IMG/VR virus record: IMGVR_UViG_3300021961_007097
Location: 1-30,101 of that record
Direction: 5' to 3' (one strand)
Length of the DNA stretch: 30,101 bases
Source: a virus
The notes beneath the pieces are model-generated. The model was not told the origin of the DNA and did no database searches. It saw only the letters and a list, made by a program, of their open reading frames with translations. Positions 13,142-30,101 of this stretch are shown one piece after another (within the stretch, counting starts at the first letter, position 1; each line of letters opens with the position of its first letter). The position numbers and the translations under genes are program-made.

Positions 13142-14545
13142 CTAAAAGTTGGTAGTAATACCTGTTAAAGTTTTTGTTAATTTCGACACAGTATCACTAT
13201 CTATTAAATATTTTCCACCACCAGAATTTCTTGGTAATACATTAAATCGTGAATGTATAGAAGTAGTCCATCCTTTACTAATGTCTATATTCTCCGTTAA
13301 TCCAAATAATTGGAATGCACCGTAGTCTTTATATGAATCAGATATTCTATCTACCCAGAAAATTTGTCCAATACGAAGCCCAGCAATACCAGGAATAGTT
13401 AAGTCTGCCGTAACTGATAATTTACCTGGTGTTCTCCATGCATGTGAGTAATTTGGATTCATCCCACCTTTGGTTGAATTTTGTGACATTTTATTTCGCA
13501 TATCGTCTGGATACATTTCAAATAATGACGATGCGATCAGCATAAGTTTTGCATCAGGAGAGAACGATCCTAATTTGTTATCCAAAATAGATTTTGTTTC
13601 TTGCGTTTGTTTTTCTTGTTTTTTAACCAAACTATCAATTAAAAATAAATCACCTTCCATATCAGGTCTATCTAAAGCAACCAAATAATCTATCGAACCA
13701 CTTTTACTATAGTCTATTCTTTTTAAATTTCCCAAATATGTACGATAATATTCACTGGCATTTGTTTGTGTATATAATACTTCTCGTTGGACTTCTATTG
13801 GTGCATTTTTAAATGGATTCTTGTAATTTTTTTCTAAATATGCCGTATAATTTTCTAGTGGTTGTTGTGGTATTGGATTTTGTACAGTTGGTGGTACAGG
13901 AGCGGGTGTATTTTTTGGTGGGGGAGTTGGTGATGAACCTTGTGCAACATTAGAACTTACTCCTAATGTGTCTGCATAATATTTAAATTTTTGTTGTCTA
14001 TCCGCCAATCCAATATCACCACCATTAACTGCTTTTGTTACTGCGGTAGTATCTGCAAAATTATTTACTCGTGGTCGTACTCTATCCTTCCAAAATACTT
14101 GTATAGCTACATCCGCAGCATACCGTGGATCCAATACCAAATCGGGATTATTTATCAGATCAATACCTAACTTTTTACCAACTGCTGCATAGTTAGCTTT
14201 TCCTGTGAGTTGTATGTACCCACGTCCTCTATATTTAAATCCATCACCAGGACTAGTATTACCCAAATCTTTTCTATTACCATATATAATTTCTGCCAAC
14301 GCTGCTCTATCTTTTCCACAACAAACTGCTTCTGCTGCAGCTCGTGACGAGAATTTTCTAGAAAAATTTTTCAAAAGAAAATCAGCACTATAATTTAACT
14401 TTTCATCTACCAATCTAAGACCAGATTCATGTTTAACTTGTGCTAATAATTGTGCAATTTCTAATGGATTGGTTATTCCCAGTGCTTCTGCACGATCTAC
14501 GAAAATTTTTTCTGAACTAGTTAATTTTGAAGTATTCATTGCCAT
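13142..14545 (-). CDS. baseplate hub-associated GH19 lysozyme/chitinase-fold protein
   Basis: A 467-residue two-part protein. Residues 1-200 form a glycoside hydrolase family 19 domain: KHESGL with the catalytic Glu at about 40, YRGRGYIQLTG (105-115) and a later VNGGDIG substrate-binding element. This family cleaves peptidoglycan or chitin. A Pro-rich linker (about 205-235, many PPP/PAP runs) leads to a C-terminal domain. Its end (ADLTIPGIAGLRIGQIFWVD, then FQLFGLTENIDISKGWTT) looks like the closing beta domain of hub proteins. It plays the role T4 gp5 plays: a cell-wall-cutting enzyme in the tail tip. The ATG at 14545 follows the upstream stop by one base. The hub assignment is inference; GH19 is solid. 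Confidence 0.85.
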   Translation of the reverse strand: MAMNTSKLTSSEKIFVDRAEALGITNPLEIAQLLAQVKHESGLRLVDEKLNYSADFLLKNFSRKFSSRAAAEAVCCGKDRAALAEIIYGNRKDLGNTSPGDGFKYRGRGYIQLTGKANYAAVGKKLGIDLINNPDLVLDPRYAADVAIQVFWKDRVRPRVNNFADTTAVTKAVNGGDIGLADRQQKFKYYADTLGVSSNVAQGSSPTPPPKNTPAPVPPTVQNPIPQQPLENYTAYLEKNYKNPFKNAPIEVQREVLYTQTNASEYYRTYLGNLKRIDYSKSGSIDYLVALDRPDMEGDLFLIDSLVKKQEKQTQETKSILDNKLGSFSPDAKLMLIASSLFEMYPDDMRNKMSQNSTKGGMNPNYSHAWRTPGKLSVTADLTIPGIAGLRIGQIFWVDRISDSYKDYGAFQLFGLTENIDISKGWTTSIHSRFNVLPRNSGGGKYLIDSDTVSKLTKTLTGITTNF

Positions 14546-14546
14546 A

Positions 14547-17135
14547 TTATCGTATTGCTCCCGGCGTACCACCGATTGCTACTGCATTCGCTGCTGGACC
14601 GATACCAGTGAAGGTAACTTGTGGGTTTACTACTGTATTTGGTGTTGTTGCCATTTTATTATCAAAAAGTGCTAGTAGTTCGTTTCTGCTGTTTTTTATA
14701 TTATCAAAAATTTGTTTCTGTTGTCTAACTATCTCTACTTTTGCCTTGGCTCGGAATTCTGCAGCGTTAGGACCGTCAACTTCAAATGCTGCTAGTTCTT
14801 TAGACTTTGCCCGATTAATAATTGCTTTTGATCGAAGTGATAGTGCATTTTTTATTGCGTCAATTTGGCCATTCGTTAAATCATCACTCGATATTCTAGA
14901 TGAAAAGCCTTGCGCTTCAATTTTTGTTAAAGGTCGTTGAATTATAAAAATTTCACCCAATACTTGTCGTGTGTTTGTAGGAAGTGTATTAAATCCACCA
15001 GCTTGTAATTGTTGTTGTATAGATGCACGAACACCATTATTTTCGTATAGTATACCCTTTAACGCAACTTCCACAAACTTATTAAGTGTATTAGTGTCCT
15101 GATTTGGTGGTGATTTTTTCTCTTCTTCTTTTTGTGTTGGTTTGTCTTTTCGTAGTAAATCAAATAACCGTGGTCCCATCAATGGGTTTCTTGCATATTG
15201 TAAATCTTTTCTATCTGGTGACCCAGAGGAGTTATTTAGTGCAGAGATTCCTAATTGTGATACTAATAGTTTTGGATAATCTGCGTTGATTCGTATATCC
15301 AATATTTCCGAACCTATAATTTGCTCATCAGCAGAAGGTTTATTTGGTAATTTCTTATTAAAGGTATAAATTGCTTGTGCTTCCTTTTTTGGTAATATTT
15401 TTAAGTTGTTGTCTACGATTCTAAAATTAGATAACTCTTCATCGTAAATTAAACTCAAATCCCAATATCCTTCGGTTGCTGCGTTAATCTTATTTAGTAA
15501 AGTTTCTATACCTTCGTGAATGGTTCGTGCTTCAAGAAACACTGCTTGAATTAATTTACTGTTAATCCATATACCAGATTTTGCCGTTGCAATACCAGAT
15601 GGATTTCCATCGGATTCTGGATTACCTTCTTCATTTACTTGCGTTAATTGGTTTGCTATTAATTTTGTTGTGGCTTTGGCAACTCGTAAAGATCCACTTG
15701 TGCTTAATTTCAAATTTTCACGGAATGATGATAACTTTGATGTACCGATATCTCTAAATGCTTTTCTATTAACTATTAAAACTGTAGAAGGATCTGTAGA
15801 TCGTAGTACTTCATTATATCCCACTTTTATAGGGTTTTTGTTTATATCTTCCAAATCTTCTAATAATTCTAAACTAAATTTTGAATCATTTTTGGTATCT
15901 ACCGAATTTACTACATTTAATGCACCATTTACAATAGATGCAACACCATTAACCGGGTCATTTAAAAAATAATTAATAAATCTATTCAGCGTAATATAGA
16001 ATGTTTGTTCTTGCCCCAAATCATTTGTTGGAGTACCACTTCCCGCTGCGGCGCTTGCACCATCTTTTTCCGCGGCATCATCTGGTTCATCAAATTTAAC
16101 TATTTCATCATCTGAGTCCGCACGAGAATCTAGTAAATATGTAAACTTTGATCGTGGTGCAAAATAATCACGAACAGAAGTTAAAAGAGTTTGATCCTTG
16201 TTAGCATTTTCGTCTTGTTGAAAATCTGGATTATTTGTTGCGTATGCGGAAATATACATGATGTTATCTGCCACACCATATGCGATTACTGTAACTTTGT
16301 ATTTGTTGTTTTCTATTACTGTTTTAACATTCGCTACTCGTGCGATAGAAAAATCATAATGATAGTTATTGGGTTTACAAAATGAATCAATAAACAAACT
16401 TCGTGCACCTTGCGACATACCACGACGACGAAGACCACCCGTAAACATTCCTGACCAGAAATTTAAAATAATTTCCGTATCTCTGACATTTTTATAATTT
16501 AATATATAATCTTTATTTAACCCTTTTTGTCCTTTGGGTGATGAGATAATATTTCCCCATTCTAATACACAACTCATACCAGGTGAAAATGCTAAAAATT
16601 CTAACATTTGTAATTGTTGCTGTGTGTAACATACCGCGTTTATGGTAAATTTTAATACATTACCATTTCGTAATCGTTCAACAGTTGCACTTTCGATCCC
16701 AGGTGGTGGATATCCATTTGGTGATTGAAATTTTTCAGACAGTCCGTTTGTATTTTTTTCGTAGGTTTTTACTAAAATTTGTTTTCCTTCGGTATAGGTT
16801 GTTCCTACTACCAATCCTTTATCTGCACGAGTTCCGTAGATATCGGAATCATTGTACGATTCATTATCCCACCCATGTAATCCTAGTGTAAAAAACTTAC
16901 AACCGGCATATCGATTTAAATCAAACGGGGAAATATAATCAAACGCTTCTCTAGCTCCGGCAGTATTTGCCAATTCGGTGTACCATTCTTTAGTAGGAAA
17001 TTCTACAGTAGTAGTGTATCGTAGAAATGGTGTTCGAATTTCTACCAATTCTGTTGATTTTCTTCTATTGTTTAATTCACTTTGTACATTTGCGTCAAAG
17101 ACATTAAATGTCTCATACGGAGAACGAGTTGCCAT
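14547..17135 (-). CDS. large baseplate hub-like virion structural protein
   Basis: An 862-residue protein in the tail module, placed between the gp53-like and the GH19/hub genes. It is mixed alpha/beta with no signal or membrane segments. Patches such as TVERLRNGNVLKFTINAVCYTQQQLQMLEFL followed by LAFSPGMSCVLEWG resemble large hub proteins of T4-like and jumbo myophages. A Ser/Gly/Ala-rich low-complexity stretch (DGASAAAGSGTPTNDLG) lies at about 355-370. The last 50 residues, with GPAANAVAIGGTPG, look disordered. Its position in the gene order fits a gp27-like hub or a fusion containing one, but I cannot match domains exactly. The start follows the upstream stop as TAATTTATG. Confidence 0.75.
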   Translation of the reverse strand: MATRSPYETFNVFDANVQSELNNRRKSTELVEIRTPFLRYTTTVEFPTKEWYTELANTAGAREAFDYISPFDLNRYAGCKFFTLGLHGWDNESYNDSDIYGTRADKGLVVGTTYTEGKQILVKTYEKNTNGLSEKFQSPNGYPPPGIESATVERLRNGNVLKFTINAVCYTQQQLQMLEFLAFSPGMSCVLEWGNIISSPKGQKGLNKDYILNYKNVRDTEIILNFWSGMFTGGLRRRGMSQGARSLFIDSFCKPNNYHYDFSIARVANVKTVIENNKYKVTVIAYGVADNIMYISAYATNNPDFQQDENANKDQTLLTSVRDYFAPRSKFTYLLDSRADSDDEIVKFDEPDDAAEKDGASAAAGSGTPTNDLGQEQTFYITLNRFINYFLNDPVNGVASIVNGALNVVNSVDTKNDSKFSLELLEDLEDINKNPIKVGYNEVLRSTDPSTVLIVNRKAFRDIGTSKLSSFRENLKLSTSGSLRVAKATTKLIANQLTQVNEEGNPESDGNPSGIATAKSGIWINSKLIQAVFLEARTIHEGIETLLNKINAATEGYWDLSLIYDEELSNFRIVDNNLKILPKKEAQAIYTFNKKLPNKPSADEQIIGSEILDIRINADYPKLLVSQLGISALNNSSGSPDRKDLQYARNPLMGPRLFDLLRKDKPTQKEEEKKSPPNQDTNTLNKFVEVALKGILYENNGVRASIQQQLQAGGFNTLPTNTRQVLGEIFIIQRPLTKIEAQGFSSRISSDDLTNGQIDAIKNALSLRSKAIINRAKSKELAAFEVDGPNAAEFRAKAKVEIVRQQKQIFDNIKNSRNELLALFDNKMATTPNTVVNPQVTFTGIGPAANAVAIGGTPGAIR

Positions 17136-22841: not shown

Positions 22842-24734
22842 TCAATCGTCTGTGTTTTCATCGGTAAAATACTCATTATATGAAGAGTTAATCCGACGAA
22901 TAAACTCTTTAAAAAATGATTTATTATTCTCAGGAGTGACCAGTTCCCCGTCTACAATAAGGTCTGCTACTTGTTGTTTATCTCGTAAAATGTCTCGCAT
23001 ATATTCATCGATAGTATCTGGACAAATCATGTAATATGCTTGCACTTGGTTGGTCTGTCCAATACGATGGGTTCTATCTTCCGCCTGCTCATGGTTTGCT
23101 GGTGTGAAGTCCATGTTAAGGAACACTACAGTATCTATGACTTTTTGCAGTCCATCAATGCCCATACCCGCCGCCATTAGGCTAAAACATCCTATTTTTG
23201 CTTGACCACTAACTAATCGATCAATACTATTTTGTCGTTCATCCCGTTTCATTTCTCCCGTCAATAATGCCGCTTTATCCCCGTAATGATCAGTCAGAAA
23301 TTTCAATGGTGTTAAATAATTACTAAATATTAAAATTGACCTATCGTTATCTAAAAACTCATCAATCATTTCCATAACTCGTGGTATTTTCTTGTCTATA
23401 AGAAAATTTTGTAATTTTGGCATATGACCAATCGACGGTTTTTCTATTTTCCACCGACCAAATACTTCCTTCAATAGTGTTTGGTATTCTTTATATTCAT
23501 CTTTAGTTAATTCTACATATAAATCATTTCGTTGTTTTTTCGGTAATTCGGTCAATACTTCACTTTTTTTTCTACGAATGACCACATCTTTTGTTCTGTC
23601 GTGGAGATCTTGAAGATTTTTCGGAGGTTCACCTTTCCATCCACCATATCGTTCTACAAAGTGATAAAAATTATTAAATCTGTCTTTGTCCAAGAAATTC
23701 AATAATGAAAATGCTTCTATGGGACGAGACATGACTGGTGTACCCGTTAAGAATATACTGTATTTTGTTTTTACTCCTGGATACTTACGACGCTCCTTCC
23801 ACGAACCCAAGATACTTTTTGCCCGTATTGTTTGACGGTTTTTAAGATAGGTCGCTTCGTCACACACAAGTAAATCGAATGCTTGGTCACGAAGCCAATG
23901 AGAATTTTTAGACACAGCATCGTAATGTGTAATATGAAACTGATTTCGGAGATGACCGTCGTAAGTTTTACTATCCCATATGGTACTCTCCTTTCCAGTA
24001 AATTTTTTGATTTCTCGTTGCCAATTAATTACTACAGATAATGGACATACAATTAAAGTTTTCAGATTGTGTAATTGTGCATACGAAATTGCCTGCACGG
24101 TTTTCCCCAATCCCGGCGCGTCTGCGATTAAACATCGACCTCCCGCTTTATCAATAAACTTTACACCAATCGTTTGATACCCATATAAGGATAATTTTAA
24201 TCCAGGTATTTTAAAATCTTTATCATCATCTTGACTTCGGATTTCATCTAATTGTTGTCGTCGTGATTTTAATCCATCCACAACATCTAGTACTTTTTTA
24301 TCACATTTAATATCAGTAAATAATTTAAATACTTTGGGGAGATGTACTACTGGAAATTCCCAATACTTTTCATCATTATTCCATTTACGACCATCAATTT
24401 CATATTTAAATTTTGCCAACATTGCTTTGTCGTAGGGCATAATGATTGCTGCGGTCTTTTTATCAACCAATATCACTTCTACTTTACTATTTGATATATT
24501 GGGTAAATCTTTATATGATATCGTAGGATTATTTGTTCGTGGTAAATCTAATTCACTAACATCTTCACCCATCAGTGTTTTTGCGGCAGCCACACGCCAG
24601 AGCTCTGGTAATCCTTCTTGTCCAGACATCCATTCTAAATACGAAGGAACACTCCTTGCAACATGTGCTAAGGAGTGTCCTTTAAATCTACCCCAAGTGA
24701 AAATTACATGTTCACTCGACTGGTGTATTGTCAT
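22842..24734 (-). CDS. SNF2-family helicase/translocase with HARP-like domain
   Basis: A superfamily 2 SNF2-type ATPase of about 630 residues. After a short N-terminal module (TWGRFKGHSLAHVARSVPSYLEWM, like the ExoX C-terminal/PARP-adjacent fold) comes a HARP-like segment (KWNNDEKYWEFPV) and then the motor. Motif I is DAPGLGKTVQA and motif II is CDEAT. Motif III is LTGTPV, motif V AAGMGIDG and motif VI EDRTHRIGQ. The layout recalls SMARCAL1/HARP annealing helicases, which remodel forks, and it could replace T4 UvsW, although UvsW is not SNF2-like in detail. The ATG at 24734 is used; an earlier ATG at 24755 is possible, and both overlap the small upstream gene. The family is certain. Confidence 0.9.
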   Translation of the reverse strand: MTIHQSSEHVIFTWGRFKGHSLAHVARSVPSYLEWMSGQEGLPELWRVAAAKTLMGEDVSELDLPRTNNPTISYKDLPNISNSKVEVILVDKKTAAIIMPYDKAMLAKFKYEIDGRKWNNDEKYWEFPVVHLPKVFKLFTDIKCDKKVLDVVDGLKSRRQQLDEIRSQDDDKDFKIPGLKLSLYGYQTIGVKFIDKAGGRCLIADAPGLGKTVQAISYAQLHNLKTLIVCPLSVVINWQREIKKFTGKESTIWDSKTYDGHLRNQFHITHYDAVSKNSHWLRDQAFDLLVCDEATYLKNRQTIRAKSILGSWKERRKYPGVKTKYSIFLTGTPVMSRPIEAFSLLNFLDKDRFNNFYHFVERYGGWKGEPPKNLQDLHDRTKDVVIRRKKSEVLTELPKKQRNDLYVELTKDEYKEYQTLLKEVFGRWKIEKPSIGHMPKLQNFLIDKKIPRVMEMIDEFLDNDRSILIFSNYLTPLKFLTDHYGDKAALLTGEMKRDERQNSIDRLVSGQAKIGCFSLMAAGMGIDGLQKVIDTVVFLNMDFTPANHEQAEDRTHRIGQTNQVQAYYMICPDTIDEYMRDILRDKQQVADLIVDGELVTPENNKSFFKEFIRRINSSYNEYFTDENTDD

Positions 24735-24924
24735 CTTGTTTATCCATTTGGACATAGTGTAGCGAATCAATATCTAATTTCCACCCATCTTCTGGTTGTA
24801 AGTTTAACATTCGCATAAATTCCAAATTTGCTTCTGTTAAATTATTTAGTGATTGATTAACCCGATCACGATGTTCTTGAATTAACATTTTAATTGCCAA
24901 AGGTACAGGTATTTTATTTTGCAT
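24712..24924 (-). CDS. small hypothetical protein
   Basis: A 70-residue protein I do not recognise. Residues 10-40 form an amphipathic helix rich in Asn, Leu and Glu (EHRDRVNQSLNNLTEANLEF). It is followed by a short motif NLQPEDGWKLD and an acidic tail ending DKQDDNTPVE. There are no cysteines or membrane segments. It lies one base from the DUF483-methyltransferase gene and overlaps the SNF2 helicase start, so it is part of the same transcript and is probably coupled to the helicase. Its reading frame is convincing because of the tight packing, but the function is unknown. Confidence 0.65.
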   Translation of the reverse strand: MQNKIPVPLAIKMLIQEHRDRVNQSLNNLTEANLEFMRMLNLQPEDGWKLDIDSLHYVQMDKQDDNTPVE

Positions 24925-24925
24925 A

Positions 24926-26398
24926 TTATACTTTTCTCTTGAATAGTTGTGCTACATCATCTTGTCTATGAATAACAGGTCCAGCGGGTTCCCACTCAAC
25001 ATCCAATCCCGTTAATTTCATCATATTGTCTATAGTTTTATACTTTACAGTCCAGTCACAAGTCAAATTAATCAAAATTAAATCGGTTTTTTCATATAAC
25101 TGTTGACGGAATGCTCTTGCTTTATCTGGTGATGTCTCCATCAAACGACCTGGCATAAGTAGTACTAGACTGTAATACTCTTCTTTCCAGTTTTGTAGAT
25201 CGAATATATCACCCATAGTGAATATACCCCAGTGTATATTTGTCGCTGCAGACATACATCGTTGACGATCCATTTCTACACCATGCGGAATTAAATCTTG
25301 TCTAGTTCCTACTACACGACCTAACAAGACTCCATTACCACATCCCAAATCCAGTACATTTCCAGAGGGAACATATTTCATATCACCGATAGCATCAATA
25401 ATTACTTCATGAAAATGATCCATTGCTTCCTTAAATCTAAATCCATTTTCTTCCCACAATGAAGTATCCTCCAATGATTTTTGGAAAGATTTTGTAGTAG
25501 TAATTGGTTTAATTTTAATTTTCTTTTCTGTGTATGGATACATAGTTCCCGACATTCCATCTTCAGGATATACGGCGTTATGTTTTTGAACAGTGTATTT
25601 CCAAGGCGTCATGTCTGTTCGTGAAGAAATCTTATTAATTGGTGTTTTAATTTCTGCAATACCGTGTAAAGCAGACCATTCCACGGGCCAAGATAATAAT
25701 TCATAAATCCAATCTACTTCTTCACCATACCCCAATTGACGACCCAATTCCGCCATTTTCATACCCATATCTTGTGTATGTGAGCAATTAAAAGAACATG
25801 GAAGATGTGATACTAATCGAACACCTTGCCATCTCCACAAAATATTACATTCTGGTGGGGTATCTTCTTTAATGTGTATGGTTCTAACATCATCCGTTAT
25901 TTGCATCTTATCTACTGACATTGGCCAAGTAGTGTCAACAAACTGTCGATTTATCCAGTTTTCTAAATAAAAATCAATACAACATTCTGGATATCCTAAT
26001 AACTCACCAACTCTTTTATTATTTAATGGTTTGGTGTTCCATAATGCATACCACTCTTTTGCTAATTCTTCGGTCTTTGTAAATACGACACGAAGCCGGT
26101 ATGGTTTACCTGGTTGGTATGGTTGTGATGTGGAAGAATATGTTGTGGTGACACCTTCTTTTGCTAAGGGTACGACCATAACACCATATTGTTTATATTC
26201 TTCAATCAGATTACTTAGTTCATTTGAATTAATAATATCCAATGTGCTTGGTCGTATATCATGAACAACCGACATTCGTTCGATGTGTTTCCATGCGGAA
26301 GATATCGAAGACAATATTTTTTCATACTTATGTTTATTTTCAATAGTGGTCCACTGTACTCGTGTCCAGTCTGGTAATACTGTATTTAGTCTTTGCAT
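24926..26398 (-). CDS. DUF483-like domain fused to a SAM-dependent methyltransferase
   Basis: A 490-residue two-domain protein. The N-terminal half resembles DUF483: LLGYPECC at 133-140 and LPCSFNCSHTQD at 199-210, giving four conserved cysteines that may bind a metal or Fe-S cluster. The C-terminal part (from about 325) is a class I Rossmann methyltransferase with VLDLGCGNGVLLG (348-360) for SAM binding and GVEMD at about 373-377, the acidic end of beta 2. It likely transfers a methyl group to an unknown target. It lies two genes downstream of the radical SAM gene, in the same run with an HADH-motif protein between, so it may act on the same substrate as the radical SAM enzyme (inference). 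Confidence 0.78.
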   Translation of the reverse strand: MQRLNTVLPDWTRVQWTTIENKHKYEKILSSISSAWKHIERMSVVHDIRPSTLDIINSNELSNLIEEYKQYGVMVVPLAKEGVTTTYSSTSQPYQPGKPYRLRVVFTKTEELAKEWYALWNTKPLNNKRVGELLGYPECCIDFYLENWINRQFVDTTWPMSVDKMQITDDVRTIHIKEDTPPECNILWRWQGVRLVSHLPCSFNCSHTQDMGMKMAELGRQLGYGEEVDWIYELLSWPVEWSALHGIAEIKTPINKISSRTDMTPWKYTVQKHNAVYPEDGMSGTMYPYTEKKIKIKPITTTKSFQKSLEDTSLWEENGFRFKEAMDHFHEVIIDAIGDMKYVPSGNVLDLGCGNGVLLGRVVGTRQDLIPHGVEMDRQRCMSAATNIHWGIFTMGDIFDLQNWKEEYYSLVLLMPGRLMETSPDKARAFRQQLYEKTDLILINLTCDWTVKYKTIDNMMKLTGLDVEWEPAGPVIHRQDDVAQLFKRKV

Positions 26399-26415
26399 AA
26401 CCTATTGGTTGAATA

Positions 26416-26784
26416 TCAAATATTGAGTTTACTCTTTTCTTCGGCAATAAGTTGTTGTAAAAATGATTTCCATTCCATATTTGCCGGAGTTTCTTGTTTT
26501 TCCGTATTATCAAGTGGACCAAATTGTGCTTCCCATGCACGACGATATTCACCAGTTTCATCTACATGGTCCGCGTGTTGGTTACCATTTTCATCAGTAA
26601 ACTTAAATTTTGGATGTTCCCCGTGTGATGGAATTTCTTGTACAGGTATTCCATCCAATACTCGAAATTCTTCTGGGAGTTCTATTAGTGCGCCAGATTC
26701 CCATAAATCTTTCACTACTTCAAATCGTTTTCCATACGCACCAGTAGTATCAATATGATCTGCGTGCAATCCATCCTTTTGCAT
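26416..26784 (-). CDS. small protein with two HADHxDxTGxY motifs
   Basis: A 122-residue hydrophilic protein without a known family. It carries two copies of HADHxDxTGxY: HADHIDTTGAY at 7-17 and HADHVDETGEY at 70-80. The same motif, HADHTDATGQY, ends the radical SAM protein encoded just upstream. The part between holds LPEEFRVLDGIPVQEIPSHG, and the C-terminus is a charged helix. The shared H-x-D-x-T core is also the repeat unit of the nearby fibre-like proteins. It could be a substrate, an adaptor carrying the same recognition motif, or a short virion component. The frame is confirmed by close packing: 17 bases before the methyltransferase gene and 21 bases after the radical SAM gene. Confidence 0.72.
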   Translation of the reverse strand: MQKDGLHADHIDTTGAYGKRFEVVKDLWESGALIELPEEFRVLDGIPVQEIPSHGEHPKFKFTDENGNQHADHVDETGEYRRAWEAQFGPLDNTEKQETPANMEWKSFLQQLIAEEKSKLNI

Positions 26785-26805
26785 AATACATTCCTCGTAA
26801 AATTA

Positions 26806-28107
26806 TTAAAGTTCTATACCAAATTTTTCAAAAAATTCTTTCTTGTACTGACCTGTTGCATCGGTATGATCGGCGTGGGGAGCTACGTGCCCAAGTTTCA
26901 TTCTATTTAACTGATTTGTTATATATCGTTCTATGTCAAATTTACCTTCTAAATGTCTGGTAATTTGTGTAATCCGTAATTCAACACCTTTACTAAATCC
27001 ATATAACATGATTTCTTCATATTTTTTTAAATCTGGATGTAGTGAAAATGGTTGTTGTCCTTTCTTCAACATTAATTTTTCATACATACTAAATAAGGTT
27101 TTCCAATTCAAACAAGTATCAGTTTTGTTACGCCAATCCATGTTAATTCCAGTGCCAGGACAATGCCCCTTACACATAAGGAAAAATCTGCATCCTTGAC
27201 AACCACCGTATTCTTCTGGGGTATGGTATAGTGCCAACTGTCGTTCATATCCATCATACTGTGCTTTAATCCAGTTAATACCATCTTTGTTTCCACGCCC
27301 ACAATTTGATTGGTTTCCCTGTGAGTCAATTCCTTGTACTGCGTGTGTAGTATACGGATCGCACGGACGAAAAGTACATGTTGCCGTGTCATCATTCATA
27401 TTCATCATAACATCGATGTCACGGAATAAATCAAAAGTAAATTTTCCTTTTAATTCCGTTAATTCAAATTCCCACATATCTAGTAGAAATTCTACATTTT
27501 GTTCAGGGGTAAGTGCTAATGTTTCTCCCACCTGACTATGATCAATTTCCAATGGATGTAGTCTTGCACCATCAACACCCCAAGATCGTAATTCACGAAT
27601 CCAATTCTTAAATCGTTCACGGTATTTTGGTAATCCATTCTTTTTATGGATCGTGATAATTAAACCCATTGAAATTTTTTCTTGATGCAATCTCTTTATA
27701 GCATCCATAGATTTTTTTGTTAATTCACGAGTTTTTTCCAATGATCCAGCCCATCTGGTATCATTCATTTCATCAGGTCCATCTACCGATACACCCACAT
27801 GTACTTTATATTTTTTAAACATTTCAATATGTCGATCTGTAATTAAAGTACCGTTGGTTTGAATACCGTTTCCACCGTACTGTTCAAATCCCCATTTAAA
27901 AATAGTTTCTAAATCATCAATATCAGTTAATAATGGTTCACCACCAAATATAATAAATTGCCCACCTTCTCGTTCTAATCCCTTTAACATTTTTTCAACA
28001 GAATATGTTTTATGACGGAAATTACCCGCGTCACGCATGGGATGTTCGTAACAATACGGACAACTTAAATTACATACTACACCAACTGGTTCCAATTCAA
28101 TTGTCAT
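26806..28107 (-). CDS. radical SAM/SPASM enzyme (peptide maturase-like)
   Basis: A 433-residue radical SAM protein. The cluster-binding motif is C-NLS-C-PY-C at 12, 16 and 19 (CX3CX2C). FGGEPLL and GVSVDGP are the usual SAM-binding and barrel strands. The C-terminal third has a SPASM/twitch cysteine set (CGRGN, CQGCRFFLMCKGHCPG, then DTC), as in anSME and peptide-modifying enzymes, for auxiliary Fe-S clusters. The last 25 residues carry HADHTDATGQY, a motif shared with the small downstream protein and close to the fibre repeats. A strong promoter and a leader of about 27 bases precede the ATG at 28107. Substrates are unknown; peptide modification is inferred from SPASM and context. Confidence 0.9.
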   Translation of the reverse strand: MTIELEPVGVVCNLSCPYCYEHPMRDAGNFRHKTYSVEKMLKGLEREGGQFIIFGGEPLLTDIDDLETIFKWGFEQYGGNGIQTNGTLITDRHIEMFKKYKVHVGVSVDGPDEMNDTRWAGSLEKTRELTKKSMDAIKRLHQEKISMGLIITIHKKNGLPKYRERFKNWIRELRSWGVDGARLHPLEIDHSQVGETLALTPEQNVEFLLDMWEFELTELKGKFTFDLFRDIDVMMNMNDDTATCTFRPCDPYTTHAVQGIDSQGNQSNCGRGNKDGINWIKAQYDGYERQLALYHTPEEYGGCQGCRFFLMCKGHCPGTGINMDWRNKTDTCLNWKTLFSMYEKLMLKKGQQPFSLHPDLKKYEEIMLYGFSKGVELRITQITRHLEGKFDIERYITNQLNRMKLGHVAPHADHTDATGQYKKEFFEKFGIEL

Positions 28108-28140
28108 GTAAATAAAACCTCGTTTAATAAATCAAAATAT

Positions 28141-28169
28141 AATATACTTATTTAACATTAGTTTGTCAA
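28141..28169 (-). promoter_or_regulatory. sigma70-type promoter for the radical SAM-methyltransferase genes
   Basis: On the minus strand, TTGACA (28164-28169) is followed after exactly 17 bases by TATATT (28141-28146), a perfect -35 and a five-of-six -10. The predicted transcription start is near 28134, about 27 bases before the radical SAM ATG. The -35 overlaps the TGA stop of the Cys-rich fibre gene. This gives the enzyme genes a start independent of the upstream fibre genes. Confidence 0.7.
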
Positions 28170-28711
28170 GCCCCAACCAATACAGGTTGATCACTATGTG
28201 GTGTAGTTGCATCACTATGACTTGCTGGTGTGGTACCATCGTTATGCGCAGTTGTTGCGTTTGTGTGACTTGCTACTGTAGTACCGTCACTGTGTGGTGT
28301 GGTTGCATTACTGTGACTTGGTGATGTACTTCCATCACTGTGCGGTGTGGTTCCATCGCTGTGACTTCCAGGAGTAGTTCCGTCACTATGTGCTGATGTG
28401 GCGTTTGCATGCGACGCTGGACTATATGAATTACTATGCCCAGTATAAACATTATCATGCGGTATATAATAATCCCCATGTATGGCGCTGCATGAACCCG
28501 CATAATAAGACAAACACCCATTATTCATAACATATTTAGAAACACCATTATTGTACATGCCGGTATATGTTACAGGATTAGTACACGATGAATCATAATA
28601 ATATTGACAACCACAGGGTTGAGAACAATTATACCACATACAGGTATCTTTCGGTGCGTTACAATCATCAGAAAACGACCAACAATTAACTCCATTTGCA
28701 CTTGAACACAT
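28166..28711 (-). CDS. Cys-rich N-terminus with His-Asp repeat fibre-like protein
   Basis: A 181-residue protein in two parts. Residues 1-75 hold ten cysteines (2, 10, 17, 24, 29, 33, 35, 43, 66, 74) with many Tyr and Asn, suggesting disulfides or metal sites. Residues 92-172 are H-x-[D/N] repeats in 16-residue units of the form H-x-N-A-T-T-x-H-S-D-G-T-T-x-A-S. The chain ends PHSDQPVLVGA, a cap shared with the gene at 29394. No signal peptide or membrane segment is seen. It is probably an external fibre or spike component. The ATG at 28711 has AGGAG about ten bases upstream. Function is not known. Confidence 0.75.
   Translation of the reverse strand: MCSSANGVNCWSFSDDCNAPKDTCMWYNCSQPCGCQYYYDSSCTNPVTYTGMYNNGVSKYVMNNGCLSYYAGSCSAIHGDYYIPHDNVYTGHSNSYSPASHANATSAHSDGTTPGSHSDGTTPHSDGSTSPSHSNATTPHSDGTTVASHTNATTAHNDGTTPASHSDATTPHSDQPVLVGA
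28169..28411 (-). repeat. five tandem 16-residue H-x-[D/N] repeats (Cys-rich fibre protein)
   Basis: Each unit is 48 bases and encodes two His-containing heptad-like elements, H-x-[N/D]-A-T-T-x and H-[S/N]-D-G-T-T-x-x-S. Histidines recur with spacings of mostly 7 and 9. The last unit runs into the PVLVGA cap. The units differ at several codons, so this is an old protein repeat rather than a fresh DNA duplication. It is not a CRISPR array, because it is in frame and coding throughout. Confidence 0.85.
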
Positions 28712-28716
28712 ATTAA

Positions 28717-28797
28717 TTATACTCCTATATTATTATCAGTTGAAAACATGATAAACGGTCTAATTGGAATGTGCTGATAGACGATCCCATACTTCAT
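28717..28797 (-). CDS. possible very small ORF (26 residues)
   Basis: A 26-codon frame starting at an ATG that overlaps the stop of the fibre gene at 28794 (ATGA). It begins MKYGIVYQHIPIRPFIMF and ends near GIGV-like residues before TAA. The AGGAG site of the next gene lies around its end. Coupling by overlap is the only support; it may be chance. If not translated, this 82-base gap is just the leader of the Cys-rich fibre gene. Confidence 0.25.
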   Translation of the reverse strand: MKYGIVYQHIPIRPFIMFSTDNNIGV

Positions 28798-29387
28798 GGA
28801 GTATAGTAATTGGTATGTGATTGCGGACTATCACCATGTCCCCCATAATTACTATGGTTGGGTGAGCTATATCCATTTCCATGACTTGCCGCTACATTAC
28901 TGTGACTTGCTGGTGTAGTTCCATCACTATGACTTGCCGCGATATTTATATGACTTGCTGGTGTGGTTCCATCACTATGACTCGCTGCGATATCCGTATG
29001 ACTTGCTGGCGTTGTTCCATCACTATGACTTGCTGCTATATCCGTGTGGCTAGGATTTGTTGTTGCGTCGGTGTGACTCGCTGCAACATCCGTGTGGCCA
29101 CGGCGCTTACTAGTATTAGTAGAAATCCAATGCCAAAAAGTACTCTCTACCCACACTGATCCTTGTTTTGCACCAGCTACAATTCCTAGATCCGTACTTA
29201 CAATGTATCGGTCCACTCCCGACTGATCTATGTAATGGAAATCATTTCCATCAATCCAAATAGAACCGGGTTTAGCTCCTACAGGACTACCAACAGAAGT
29301 ACCTGTGTAATAGTACTCTGTTCCTGTTCCATCTACAAAGTGAAAGTTGGATCCGCTTATCCAAATACTACCTATTGTTTTTGGCAT
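28794..29387 (-). CDS. fibre-like protein: GSIW beta repeats plus His-Asp repeats
   Basis: A 197-residue protein. The N-terminal part has three copies, 35 residues apart, of a G-S-[I/V]-W-x-x-x-x-x-[F]-H-[F/Y/W]-[V/I] unit (residues 6, 41 and 76), which look like beta hairpins. A basic KRRG links to residues 98-169: four and a half copies of a 16-residue repeat, H-T-D-I-A-A-S-H-S-D-G-T-T-P-A-S. The end (NHSNYGGHGDSPQSH) is His/Gly-rich and lacks the PVLVGA cap. It is probably a tail fibre, whisker or capsid-decorating fibre. It is the middle of three related genes and is adjacent (six bases) to the larger paralogue. Confidence 0.78.
   Translation of the reverse strand: MPKTIGSIWISGSNFHFVDGTGTEYYYTGTSVGSPVGAKPGSIWIDGNDFHYIDQSGVDRYIVSTDLGIVAGAKQGSVWVESTFWHWISTNTSKRRGHTDVAASHTDATTNPSHTDIAASHSDGTTPASHTDIAASHSDGTTPASHINIAASHSDGTTPASHSNVAASHGNGYSSPNHSNYGGHGDSPQSHTNYYTP
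28881..29096 (-). repeat. 4.5 tandem 16-residue repeats in the middle fibre protein
   Basis: Units of 48 bases encode HTDVAASHTDATTNPS, two copies of HTDIAASHSDGTTPAS and HINIAASHSDGTTPAS, then half a unit. Two neighbouring units have identical protein sequence, so recent unequal exchange is likely. Histidine spacing alternates 7 and 9, and almost every His is followed after one residue by Asp or Asn. Confidence 0.88.
29058..29258 (-). repeat. duplicated GSVW-KRRG-HTD block (copy 1; copy 2 at 29901-30101)
   Basis: Two blocks of equal length (201 bases, 67 codons) encode nearly the same protein: F-H-Y-I-D-Q, DRYIVSTDLG, GAK-x-GSVW, ESTFWHWIST, KRRGHTDVAASHTDATT. The second copy reaches the window edge. 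This marks the two fibre genes as paralogues made by a local duplication or recombination of the N-terminal module. Confidence 0.85.
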
Positions 29388-29393
29388 AATATA

Positions 29394-30101
29394 TTAGACC
29401 CCAACTAACACAGGTTGATCACTATGTGGTGTGGTTGCATCACTATGACTTGCGGTGGTAGTGCCGTCACTGTGTGGTGTGGTTGCATCCGTATGTGGTG
29501 TTGTTGCGTTTGTATGACTTGCTATGATATTACTGTGTGATGCCGCAATATTAGTGTGCGAACCAGGAGTGGTTGCATTAATATGCGGTTGTCCACCAGT
29601 ATAATCATCGTGGAACGGAGCATTACCGTGAGGATTACTTTCATCACCATGGAAAATTAGATCTTCATGAAATATTCCAGGAATGACATAATTTGCGTGT
29701 TCATTGTAATCAGAATGTGTAGTAAGATAGACATCATCGTGTCCTGAGACATTGTTGTGAGGTGCATTATAATTGGCGTGACTTCCATTTGTAGTAGCAT
29801 CACTATGCGATGTTGTGCCATCACTATGTGCCGTAGTTGCGTTCGTATGACTTGCTAATATATCATTGTGACTTGCTACGATATTTGTATGACTTGCGGG
29901 TGTTGTTGCGTCGGTATGGCTTGCAGCAACATCGGTGTGCCCACGGCGTTTATTTGTTCCCGTAGAAATCCAATGCCAGAAAGTGCTTTCTGCCCACACT
30001 GATCCTGGTTTTGCTCCCGTTACTGCACCCAAGTCAGTACTGACAATGTATCGGTCCACTCCTAATTGATCAATATAATGGAAATCGTTGGTATCGACCC
30101 A
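29394..30101 (-). CDS. fibre-like protein with H-x-[D/N] repeats (5' end outside window)
   Basis: The frame is open to the window edge, so the true start lies beyond 30101; the GTG at 30059 is internal. The visible part begins with the end of a GSIW-type beta repeat (W-V-D-T-N-D-F-H-Y-I-D-Q, then DRYIVSTDLG) and another repeat ending ESTFWHWIST. It continues through KRRG into about 180 residues in which some two dozen H-x-[D/N] motifs recur every 6-10 residues, with no other domain. The C-terminus PHSDQPVLVGV matches the Cys-rich fibre protein. The function is probably virion fibre or host contact. The next gene starts six bases after its stop. Confidence 0.75.
   Translation of the reverse strand, partial: WVDTNDFHYIDQLGVDRYIVSTDLGAVTGAKPGSVWAESTFWHWISTGTNKRRGHTDVAASHTDATTPASHTNIVASHNDILASHTNATTAHSDGTTSHSDATTNGSHANYNAPHNNVSGHDDVYLTTHSDYNEHANYVIPGIFHEDLIFHGDESNPHGNAPFHDDYTGGQPHINATTPGSHTNIAASHSNIIASHTNATTPHTDATTPHSDGTTTASHSDATTPHSDQPVLVGV
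29397..29939 (-). repeat. long irregular H-x-[D/N] repeat tract
   Basis: About 24 motifs such as HTD, HSD, HTN, HAN, HED, HGD and HDD, spaced mostly 7 or 9 residues apart and sometimes 6, 8 or 10. The ends of the tract use the regular A-T-T-P-H-S-D-G-T-T wording; the middle (HEDLIFHGDESNPHGNAPFH) has diverged but kept the His and acidic or amide positions. That conservation suggests these residues matter for function. Confidence 0.85.

Follow-up and report, generated by a model that had tools for sequence, protein, structure and literature searches.

A repeat-protein and radical SAM gene row in a viral record

The window analysed here is a whole 30,101-base stretch of an IMG/VR virus record (IMGVR_UViG_3300021961_007097). 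Its minus strand carries, in this order, three open reading frames (ORFs) built of H-x-[D/N] repeats, a radical S-adenosylmethionine (SAM) enzyme with a SPASM domain, a small protein with HADH motifs, and a DUF483 domain fused to a methyltransferase (Table 1). Starting from the first repeat ORF, successive genes down to the DUF483 fusion are separated by 6, 82, 58, 21 and 17 nucleotides (nt). An earlier note on this DNA had described the three downstream genes as lying beside three repeat proteins, and its coordinates and motifs proved correct. Other genes of the window match a UvsX-like recombinase, a DnaB-like helicase, a single-strand binding protein and a baseplate hub, suggesting a T4-like tailed phage as the source.

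Table 1. Genes of the row in the window (aa, amino acids)
Feature	Position	Strand	Remarks
Repeat protein 1 (235 aa)	29394..30101	-	N-terminus cut by window end; 24 H-x-[D/N] units after a GSxW-type N-terminal domain; C-terminus HSDQPVLVGV; proposed substrate
Repeat protein 2 (197 aa)	28794..29387	-	13 H-x-[D/N] units preceded by three GS-x-W segments; proposed substrate
Repeat protein 3 (181 aa)	28166..28711	-	Cys-rich N-terminus, 13 H-x-[D/N] units; C-terminus HSDQPVLVGA; proposed substrate
Radical SAM/SPASM enzyme (433 aa)	26806..28107	-	C-terminal HADHTDATGQY tail; proposed fibre-repeat maturase
Small HADH protein (122 aa)	26416..26784	-	Motifs HADHIDTTGAY and HADHVDETGEY
DUF483-methyltransferase (490 aa)	24926..26398	-	DUF483 at about residues 1-290, fused to class I methyltransferase domain

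Together the repeat ORFs hold 50 H-x-[D/N] units and 55 histidines. The units are written with 42 distinct codon triples (20, 10 and 12, counted per ORF), and in 43 distinct related repeat proteins, chosen for their H-x-[D/N] content, 1199 of 1226 histidines have D or N at +2. Judged by these two counts, the pattern exceeds chance and looks to be maintained at the protein level and not through recent DNA duplication. Pfam (above cut-off) and NCBIfam (E<=1) gave no match for any of the three window ORFs. A precursor-like repeat protein adjoins the radical SAM gene, an arrangement that would suit a system making ribosomally synthesized and post-translationally modified peptides (RiPPs). The conserved N-terminal GSxW domain could be a putative leader. 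It found a single match among PDB sequences (E 0.53), and for a profile search no stretch of it was sufficiently conserved.

The radical SAM enzyme matches Radical_SAM (PF04055) at 60.7 bits against a Pfam cut-off of 29.5, which places it in that superfamily, and its CX3CX2C motif (C12, C16, C19) is invariant in a 26-row alignment. The two-cluster cysteine pattern of SPASM domains runs C-x9-15-G-x4-C ... C-x2-C-x5-C-x3-C ... C. Its counterpart here is C249-x14-G264-x4-C269, C303-x2-C306-x5-C312-x3-C316 and C332, plus C244, likewise invariant in the 26 rows and placing the enzyme in the SPASM subfamily; all 3 + 8 cysteines are unchanged throughout alignments with 12, 22 and 26 rows. The C-terminus reads ...HADHTDATGQYKKEFFEKFGIEL. 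An AlphaFold2 model (mean predicted local distance difference test score 84.4) is closest in fold to anSMEcpe (Z 27.9, root-mean-square deviation (rmsd) 2.9, 318 aligned), with the RiPP enzyme ChlB next (Z 27.2, rmsd 2.9, 321 aligned).

The top four NCBIfam scores belong to anSME, DynA, AmcB and YhhB, and among the best 25 of 59 matches none reaches its cut-off. Assignment to anSME itself was rejected (TIGR03942; 87.6 bits, cut-off 349.45), as was assignment to the named cyclophane subfamilies AmcB and YhhB (71 of 425 and 67.3 of 445 bits), GrrM/OscB, FxsB and XyeB (52.8 of 310, 45.9 of 370 and 41.2 of 450), or to HxsB and HxsC (30.2 and 14.8 bits, cut-offs 370 and 267.9). On its cysteine set, predicted fold and sub-cut-off scores, this is a SPASM enzyme whose family has no name among these NCBIfam models.

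Co-occurrence of repeat protein, radical SAM enzyme and DUF483

A related radical SAM gene turned up at 54 distinct loci in two viral scans. Among named phages it is carried by the Thermus phages phiLo (51% identity), Cumys and phiMa (47%), the last two with T. thermophilus HB8 as host; in 14 further matching phage records identity to the enzyme is <28%. From a genome scan we took the best 80 of 416 relatives and split them by E-value and coverage into family members (loci L059-L084) and a control of other radical SAM genes (L085-L138), a division of our own in which the controls are mostly partial-query matches or have <30% identity. With the most distant locus (L058, 32% over 115 residues) and the second radical SAM gene of L023 excluded, the family set comprised 86 sequences, which joined at 85% identity into 58 clusters. 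A dense repeat was defined as at least 8 aromatic-x-[D/N/K] per 60 residues, with at least 60% of H, F, W and Y belonging to such triads; the radical SAM ORF itself did not count. Control loci were searched over their full surveyed length.

By this fixed criterion, a dense repeat ORF lies near the radical SAM gene in 43 of the 58 clusters versus 1 of the 54 control loci. We sorted the 15 failing clusters by our own judgement: nine have weaker or more distant repeats, two lie on short contigs and are not judgeable (L038, L067), and four show none. The nine are L023 (17 HxN among 19 His, where the ratio fails owing to Tyr), L031 (a count of 7 in a piece cut by the contig start), L071 (an HxK array), L072 (four HxD at a C-terminus), L260 (13 of 13 His, elsewhere on the record, at L157), and L063, L065, L066 and L082. 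The sole control match, L086, has a YSD repeat protein beside another radical SAM gene, and L105, which is alike, falls narrowly below the criterion. Their ORFs (from base 4741 in L086 and base 4519 in L105) end in C-terminal YSDYSDYSD repeats, perhaps a Tyr-x-Asp counterpart.

The genes are also closely spaced: the end of the nearest upstream repeat gene is <=76 nt from the radical SAM start in 30 of the 39 clusters that have one, and the two genes overlap in 13. DUF483 is a constant partner. A purpose-built profile found a match in 57 of the 58 clusters, the contig of the remaining one (L057) ending within the radical SAM gene. Ten of the 86 sequences, bacterial without exception, have their best DUF483 match in the enzyme's own reading frame, as a fusion. 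A tree of 56 clusters puts 18 bacterial chromosomal genes on one branch (support 99/97) and the remaining four genome rows (L076, L079, L081, L084) among viral branches.

A scan from the other side, for five tandem HxD/N units, returned at least 120 stretches, seven of which we judged genuine by eye (L157, L177, L183, L211, L231, L234 and L253; L177 is the contig of L056, and L231 has exact stretches in common with L041). Among the repeat-first matches listed, five of these seven have the radical SAM gene on the same record; the two without it, L211 and L234, are fragments of 17.6 and 4.6 kb in which the repeat is near the end of the available DNA. The other stretches, checked within their local DNA, are apparent short or shadow-frame low-complexity repeats, and the whole records of six of them (L176, L166, L246, L254, L153, L205) contain no radical SAM gene. 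A search with a second DNA pattern hit a single stretch, and no repeat ORF was found there. The earlier note would have taken repeats widespread without the enzymes, and enzymes without the repeats, as a refutation; the part of that check run here, with 4 of 58 enzyme clusters showing no repeats and 5 of 7 listed repeats accompanied by the enzyme, leaves its idea standing. The recurrence of the trio of repeat protein, radical SAM enzyme and DUF483 in phage lineages of many kinds, and in chromosomes of bacteria, is new here.

The repeat motif also reaches into the enzyme. The last 60 residues of the radical SAM protein hold at least two H-x-[D/N] in 29 of 56 clusters versus 9 of 855 other ORFs, the latter being stop-to-stop frames of at least 200 aa in any frame, so that shadow frames are counted. 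The window enzyme's HADHTD tail and the two HADHxD motifs of the small protein fall into this group.

Gene neighbourhood makes a tail-fibre-like place likely for the repeat proteins. In the window's relatives, the repeat ORFs come after, or are fused with, collagen-like GPTG proteins, and the one Pfam match above cut-off among ten neighbour proteins is a collagen repeat. In L055, the array forms the C-terminus of a 741-aa protein. The array at L004:2680-5289 has 97 HxD/N. In phiLo, two very large repeat ORFs (L025:13807-15231 and L025:15253-17172) have 75 of 78 and 94 of 98 histidines, respectively, in H-x-[D/N]. They lie about 4.4 kb past the radical SAM gene and on the other strand, and the second is cut by the locus end. 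A 232-aa fibre-region protein at L006:2045-2743, with similar ORFs in L010 and L012, has a sub-cut-off DUF6171 match (22.4 of 27 bits).

The aromatic motif and the proposed chemistry

We next consider what the arrays have in common at the residue level. In 54 repeat cores (9,634 residues, one locus per cluster), 96% of 1,529 histidines have D or N at +2, a figure that is partly by construction since the cores were chosen using the aromatic motif. Enrichment two positions before D or N is confined to H, F, Y and W (4.2-, 2.8-, 2.0- and 2.9-fold), all 16 remaining residues being depleted there. The test was repeated with 46 cores picked on His alone: D or N stands at +2 of 42% of 120 F, 39% of 238 Y and 58% of 57 W, against a background of 23%, and of only 0-9% of I, L, V, M, T, S, A, Q, K, R and E. 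Some arrays have switched residue altogether, to FxN in L028 (PFDNTPFDN), Fx[N/Q/S] in L034 and HENV in L079; WxN/WxD is abundant in the arrays of L053, L081 and L084. HxK arrays lie upstream of the radical SAM gene in Aminicenantes and Fulvivirga genomes (L070:2-1180 and L071:5832-8972; HVKVPHVKHVK, HIKAPHIKHIK). Read across these sequences, the triad's first residue is nearly always aromatic, and its third acidic, amide or basic. Of the H-x-D-x-T core that the earlier note saw shared by enzyme and fibres, the repeat core is real, but its conserved part is aromatic-x-[D/N], T being merely frequent.

Metals are commonly bound by histidine together with aspartate or asparagine, and there are known phage fibres in which histidine holds a metal. 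The arrays might then be unmodified metal-binding fibres, and the radical SAM enzyme would have a different target. We regard this as very improbable: the same enzyme family adjoins FxN, WxN/WxD and HxK arrays, and the aromatic preference, gene overlap and co-occurrence would lack an explanation. FxN, WxN and HxK arrays weaken metal binding as the motif's only reason; taken with the aromatic preference, the switched arrays argue against it as the common reason and fit a cyclophane triad.

Enzymes that form three-residue cyclophanes are, according to passages of PMC11002830, SPASM radical SAM enzymes that bond an aromatic residue i (Trp, Phe, Tyr or His) with the C-beta of the residue at i+2, an Asn, Asp, Arg, Ser or Ala; Aro-Xaa-Asn and HNR motifs are reported in passages of PMC9062424. 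As with the triceptide maturases named in the former (XncB, OscB, MscB, YxdB, HaaB, YhhB), a SPASM enzyme here stands beside a substrate of repeated aromatic-x-(N/D/other), and all four aromatic residues are used. The substrate feature of triceptide (3-CyFE) systems, aromatic-x-x' triads beside the enzyme, is what the 43/58 versus 1/54 comparison found. Unlike those systems, the present family has large fibre-like phage substrates, with up to about a hundred triads, and DUF483 as constant partner, and it reaches no named subfamily's cut-off. We infer that the cluster works like a triceptide system, outside the tested named subfamilies, with a structural virion protein as proposed substrate.

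The family-wide co-occurrence, gene overlap and clean aromatic-x-[D/N] signature support action on the repeats well, and we consider it highly probable that the radical SAM enzyme acts on the repeat proteins. That the reaction is three-residue cyclophane formation is a less certain claim, which we favour on the motif. The nearest folds, anSMEcpe and ChlB, are those of peptide-modifying enzymes, and two of the NCBIfam runners-up, AmcB and YhhB, are cyclophane makers, which also speaks for it. The enzyme may instead modify the repeats by a His nitrogen-C-beta link, epimerisation, desaturation or Asp/Asn oxidation, perhaps followed by methylation. The second-best NCBIfam score, 81 bits for DynA (dynobactin maturation), and the methyltransferase domain fused to the partner in the window point that way. 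Phe and Trp replace His across whole arrays, however, which excludes a general His-nitrogen link; epimerisation needs no aromatic residue; and Cumys, L023, L051 and L065 have no methyltransferase domain. These other reactions together seem to us rather unlikely.

Polytheonamide-type proteusin systems combine a leader of the nitrile-hydratase or Nif11 type with the corresponding epimerase. The analogy with polytheonamide epimerisation and methylation drawn in the earlier note found no support, the closest substrate motif being that of three-residue cyclophane formation. The His-Xaa-Ser system (HxsB/HxsC), by NCBIfam family naming, likewise combines radical SAM enzymes with a His-x-Ser repeat protein; the third residue here is D or N, and the Hxs scores fall short. 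anSME and ChlB are the closest folds and anSME the best NCBIfam score, but the enzyme is far under the anSME cut-off, and the repeat cores are nearly Cys-free. With 19 Cys in the 9,634 core residues, thioether chemistry is therefore not general.

A different target was suggested by Kolesnik et al. 2024 (PMC11437467), who named an 'rSAM module' in Cumys and phiMa and proposed DNA modification; passages of that paper describe its recurrence in prophages and DUF483 fusions with methyltransferase or radical SAM domains. Gene family and order are those of the window (repeat protein, radical SAM enzyme, DUF483), to which the window adds the methyltransferase domain and the HADH protein. Those passages give the third protein as of unknown function and leave repeats unmentioned; that it is the aromatic-x-[D/N] repeat protein, and as such the likely substrate, is new here. 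Homologues among deazapurine DNA-modification genes of some cyanobacteria, e.g. Geitlerinema (PMC11437467), speak for the DNA proposal. Against it, the third gene product, Cumys_13, has 54 of 54 His in H-x-[D/N] and up to 61 aromatic-x-[D/N] triads in all, the Cumys module comes after baseplate and collar-fibre genes, and the nearest folds of the radical SAM enzyme are peptide-modifying enzymes. We find modification of phage DNA very improbable.

We propose that the cluster would be a RiPP-style modification module directed at virion structural proteins. The radical SAM/SPASM enzyme would target aromatic-x-[D/N] triads, mostly of His and in some phages of Phe, Tyr or Trp, in fibre-like tail proteins, bonding the aromatic ring at i to the beta-carbon at i+2 and so lining the fibre with one three-residue cyclophane after another. 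DUF483 would be the constant partner, perhaps for substrate binding or for electron or cluster handling via four invariant cysteines, and the fused methyltransferase an accessory. The enzyme's HADHTD tail and the HADHxD motifs of the small protein might be docking tags, substrate mimics or additional sites of self-modification. The rings might stiffen the fibre and shield it against protease or heat; this hardening is a guess that follows from the proposed chemistry.

Several points weigh against cyclophane formation on the repeats. All support for a modification is at the level of sequence, and no modification was observed. Repeats were not seen at four chromosomal clusters (L069, L074, L075, L078), and none of the 18 radical SAM genes on the bacterial chromosomal branch has an HxD tail. 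Many Tyr and Phe of the repeat proteins, including those in N-terminal domains, fall outside the motif; Tyr fits loosely, with D or N at +2 in 39% and at -1 in 40%, and for Trp the share at -1 is high too, at 72%. The enzyme's top NCBIfam score is that of anSME, and it reaches the cut-off of no named cyclophane family. Finally, the aromatic pairs named in the passages of PMC11002830 include His-Ala and His-Arg and not His-Asp/Asn, which would be new.

To our knowledge, this radical chemistry is so far restricted to small peptide products. If the proposal is true, virion fibres are hardened by it, at a far higher density per chain, and enzymes exist that process very long repeat substrates. We are evenly divided on the wider statement that the fibre polypeptides of many different tailed phages each bear three-residue cyclophanes made by an enzyme, from tens up to about a hundred of them, with the chromosomal sister branch making small peptides or decorated protein tails. 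In a literature search that left subscription journals mostly uncovered, we found, among the papers listed, no report of cyclophanes or radical SAM modification in a phage virion, and nothing joining triceptide with bacteriophage. The proposal offers an alternative to the printed DNA-modification suggestion and gives a context to DUF483, which a single paper in the literature searched mentions. It is open to mass spectrometry, the radical SAM gene being present in three Thermus phages in culture (phiMa, Cumys and phiLo).

Partner proteins and neighbouring genes

The 490-aa partner matches DUF483 (PF04467) at 32.5 bits against a Pfam cut-off of 25 and is thus a member; the four cysteines are invariant in a 19-row alignment. 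Its methyltransferase part is below the Pfam cut-off, yet the model matches class I methyltransferases. Fold searches with the model said nothing of the DUF483 half, the match lists being filled by the methyltransferase half alone, and residues 1-290, searched by sequence, had no match in the PDB at E<=1, which does not in itself show a new fold. The earlier note had both enzymes modifying the fibre repeats or the HADH protein, with a putative change in virion surface chemistry or host binding. Its radical SAM half is well supported by the co-occurrence, overlap and signature; the methyltransferase domain is missing from several family members and for that reason looks accessory, the core being repeat protein, radical SAM enzyme and DUF483.

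The small HADH protein adjoins the radical SAM gene in 13 of 13 loci (L002-L014), and HADHxD is invariant in its 8-row alignment. We rejected it as a family-wide part: it was found only in the window's close clade, and the gene in its position in L034 has no similarity to it.

Acidobacteriota loci carry small HxD-rich ORFs directly upstream of a radical SAM-DUF483 fusion (L061:8486-8749, L061:8761-8970, L060:3288-3575 and L060:3649-3873), which resemble ordinary RiPP precursors from this family. A recurrent neighbour with W-x-x-[IVM]-A-x-PQ-x-D near its start (L016:6054-6986, L060:5950-6813, L071:10156-10953, L234:2774-3850) may be a fourth member of the module; the L016, L060 and L071 proteins gave no Pfam match above cut-off.

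In the window, a 70-aa ORF (24712-24924) follows one base past the DUF483 gene and has weak PHROG matches only; short ORFs occupy its position in L004, L006, L010, L012 and L034. Amid the tail and replication genes, a 476-aa protein (13142-14572) has endolysin/chitinase-type PHROG matches (phrog_181, 1.3e-55).

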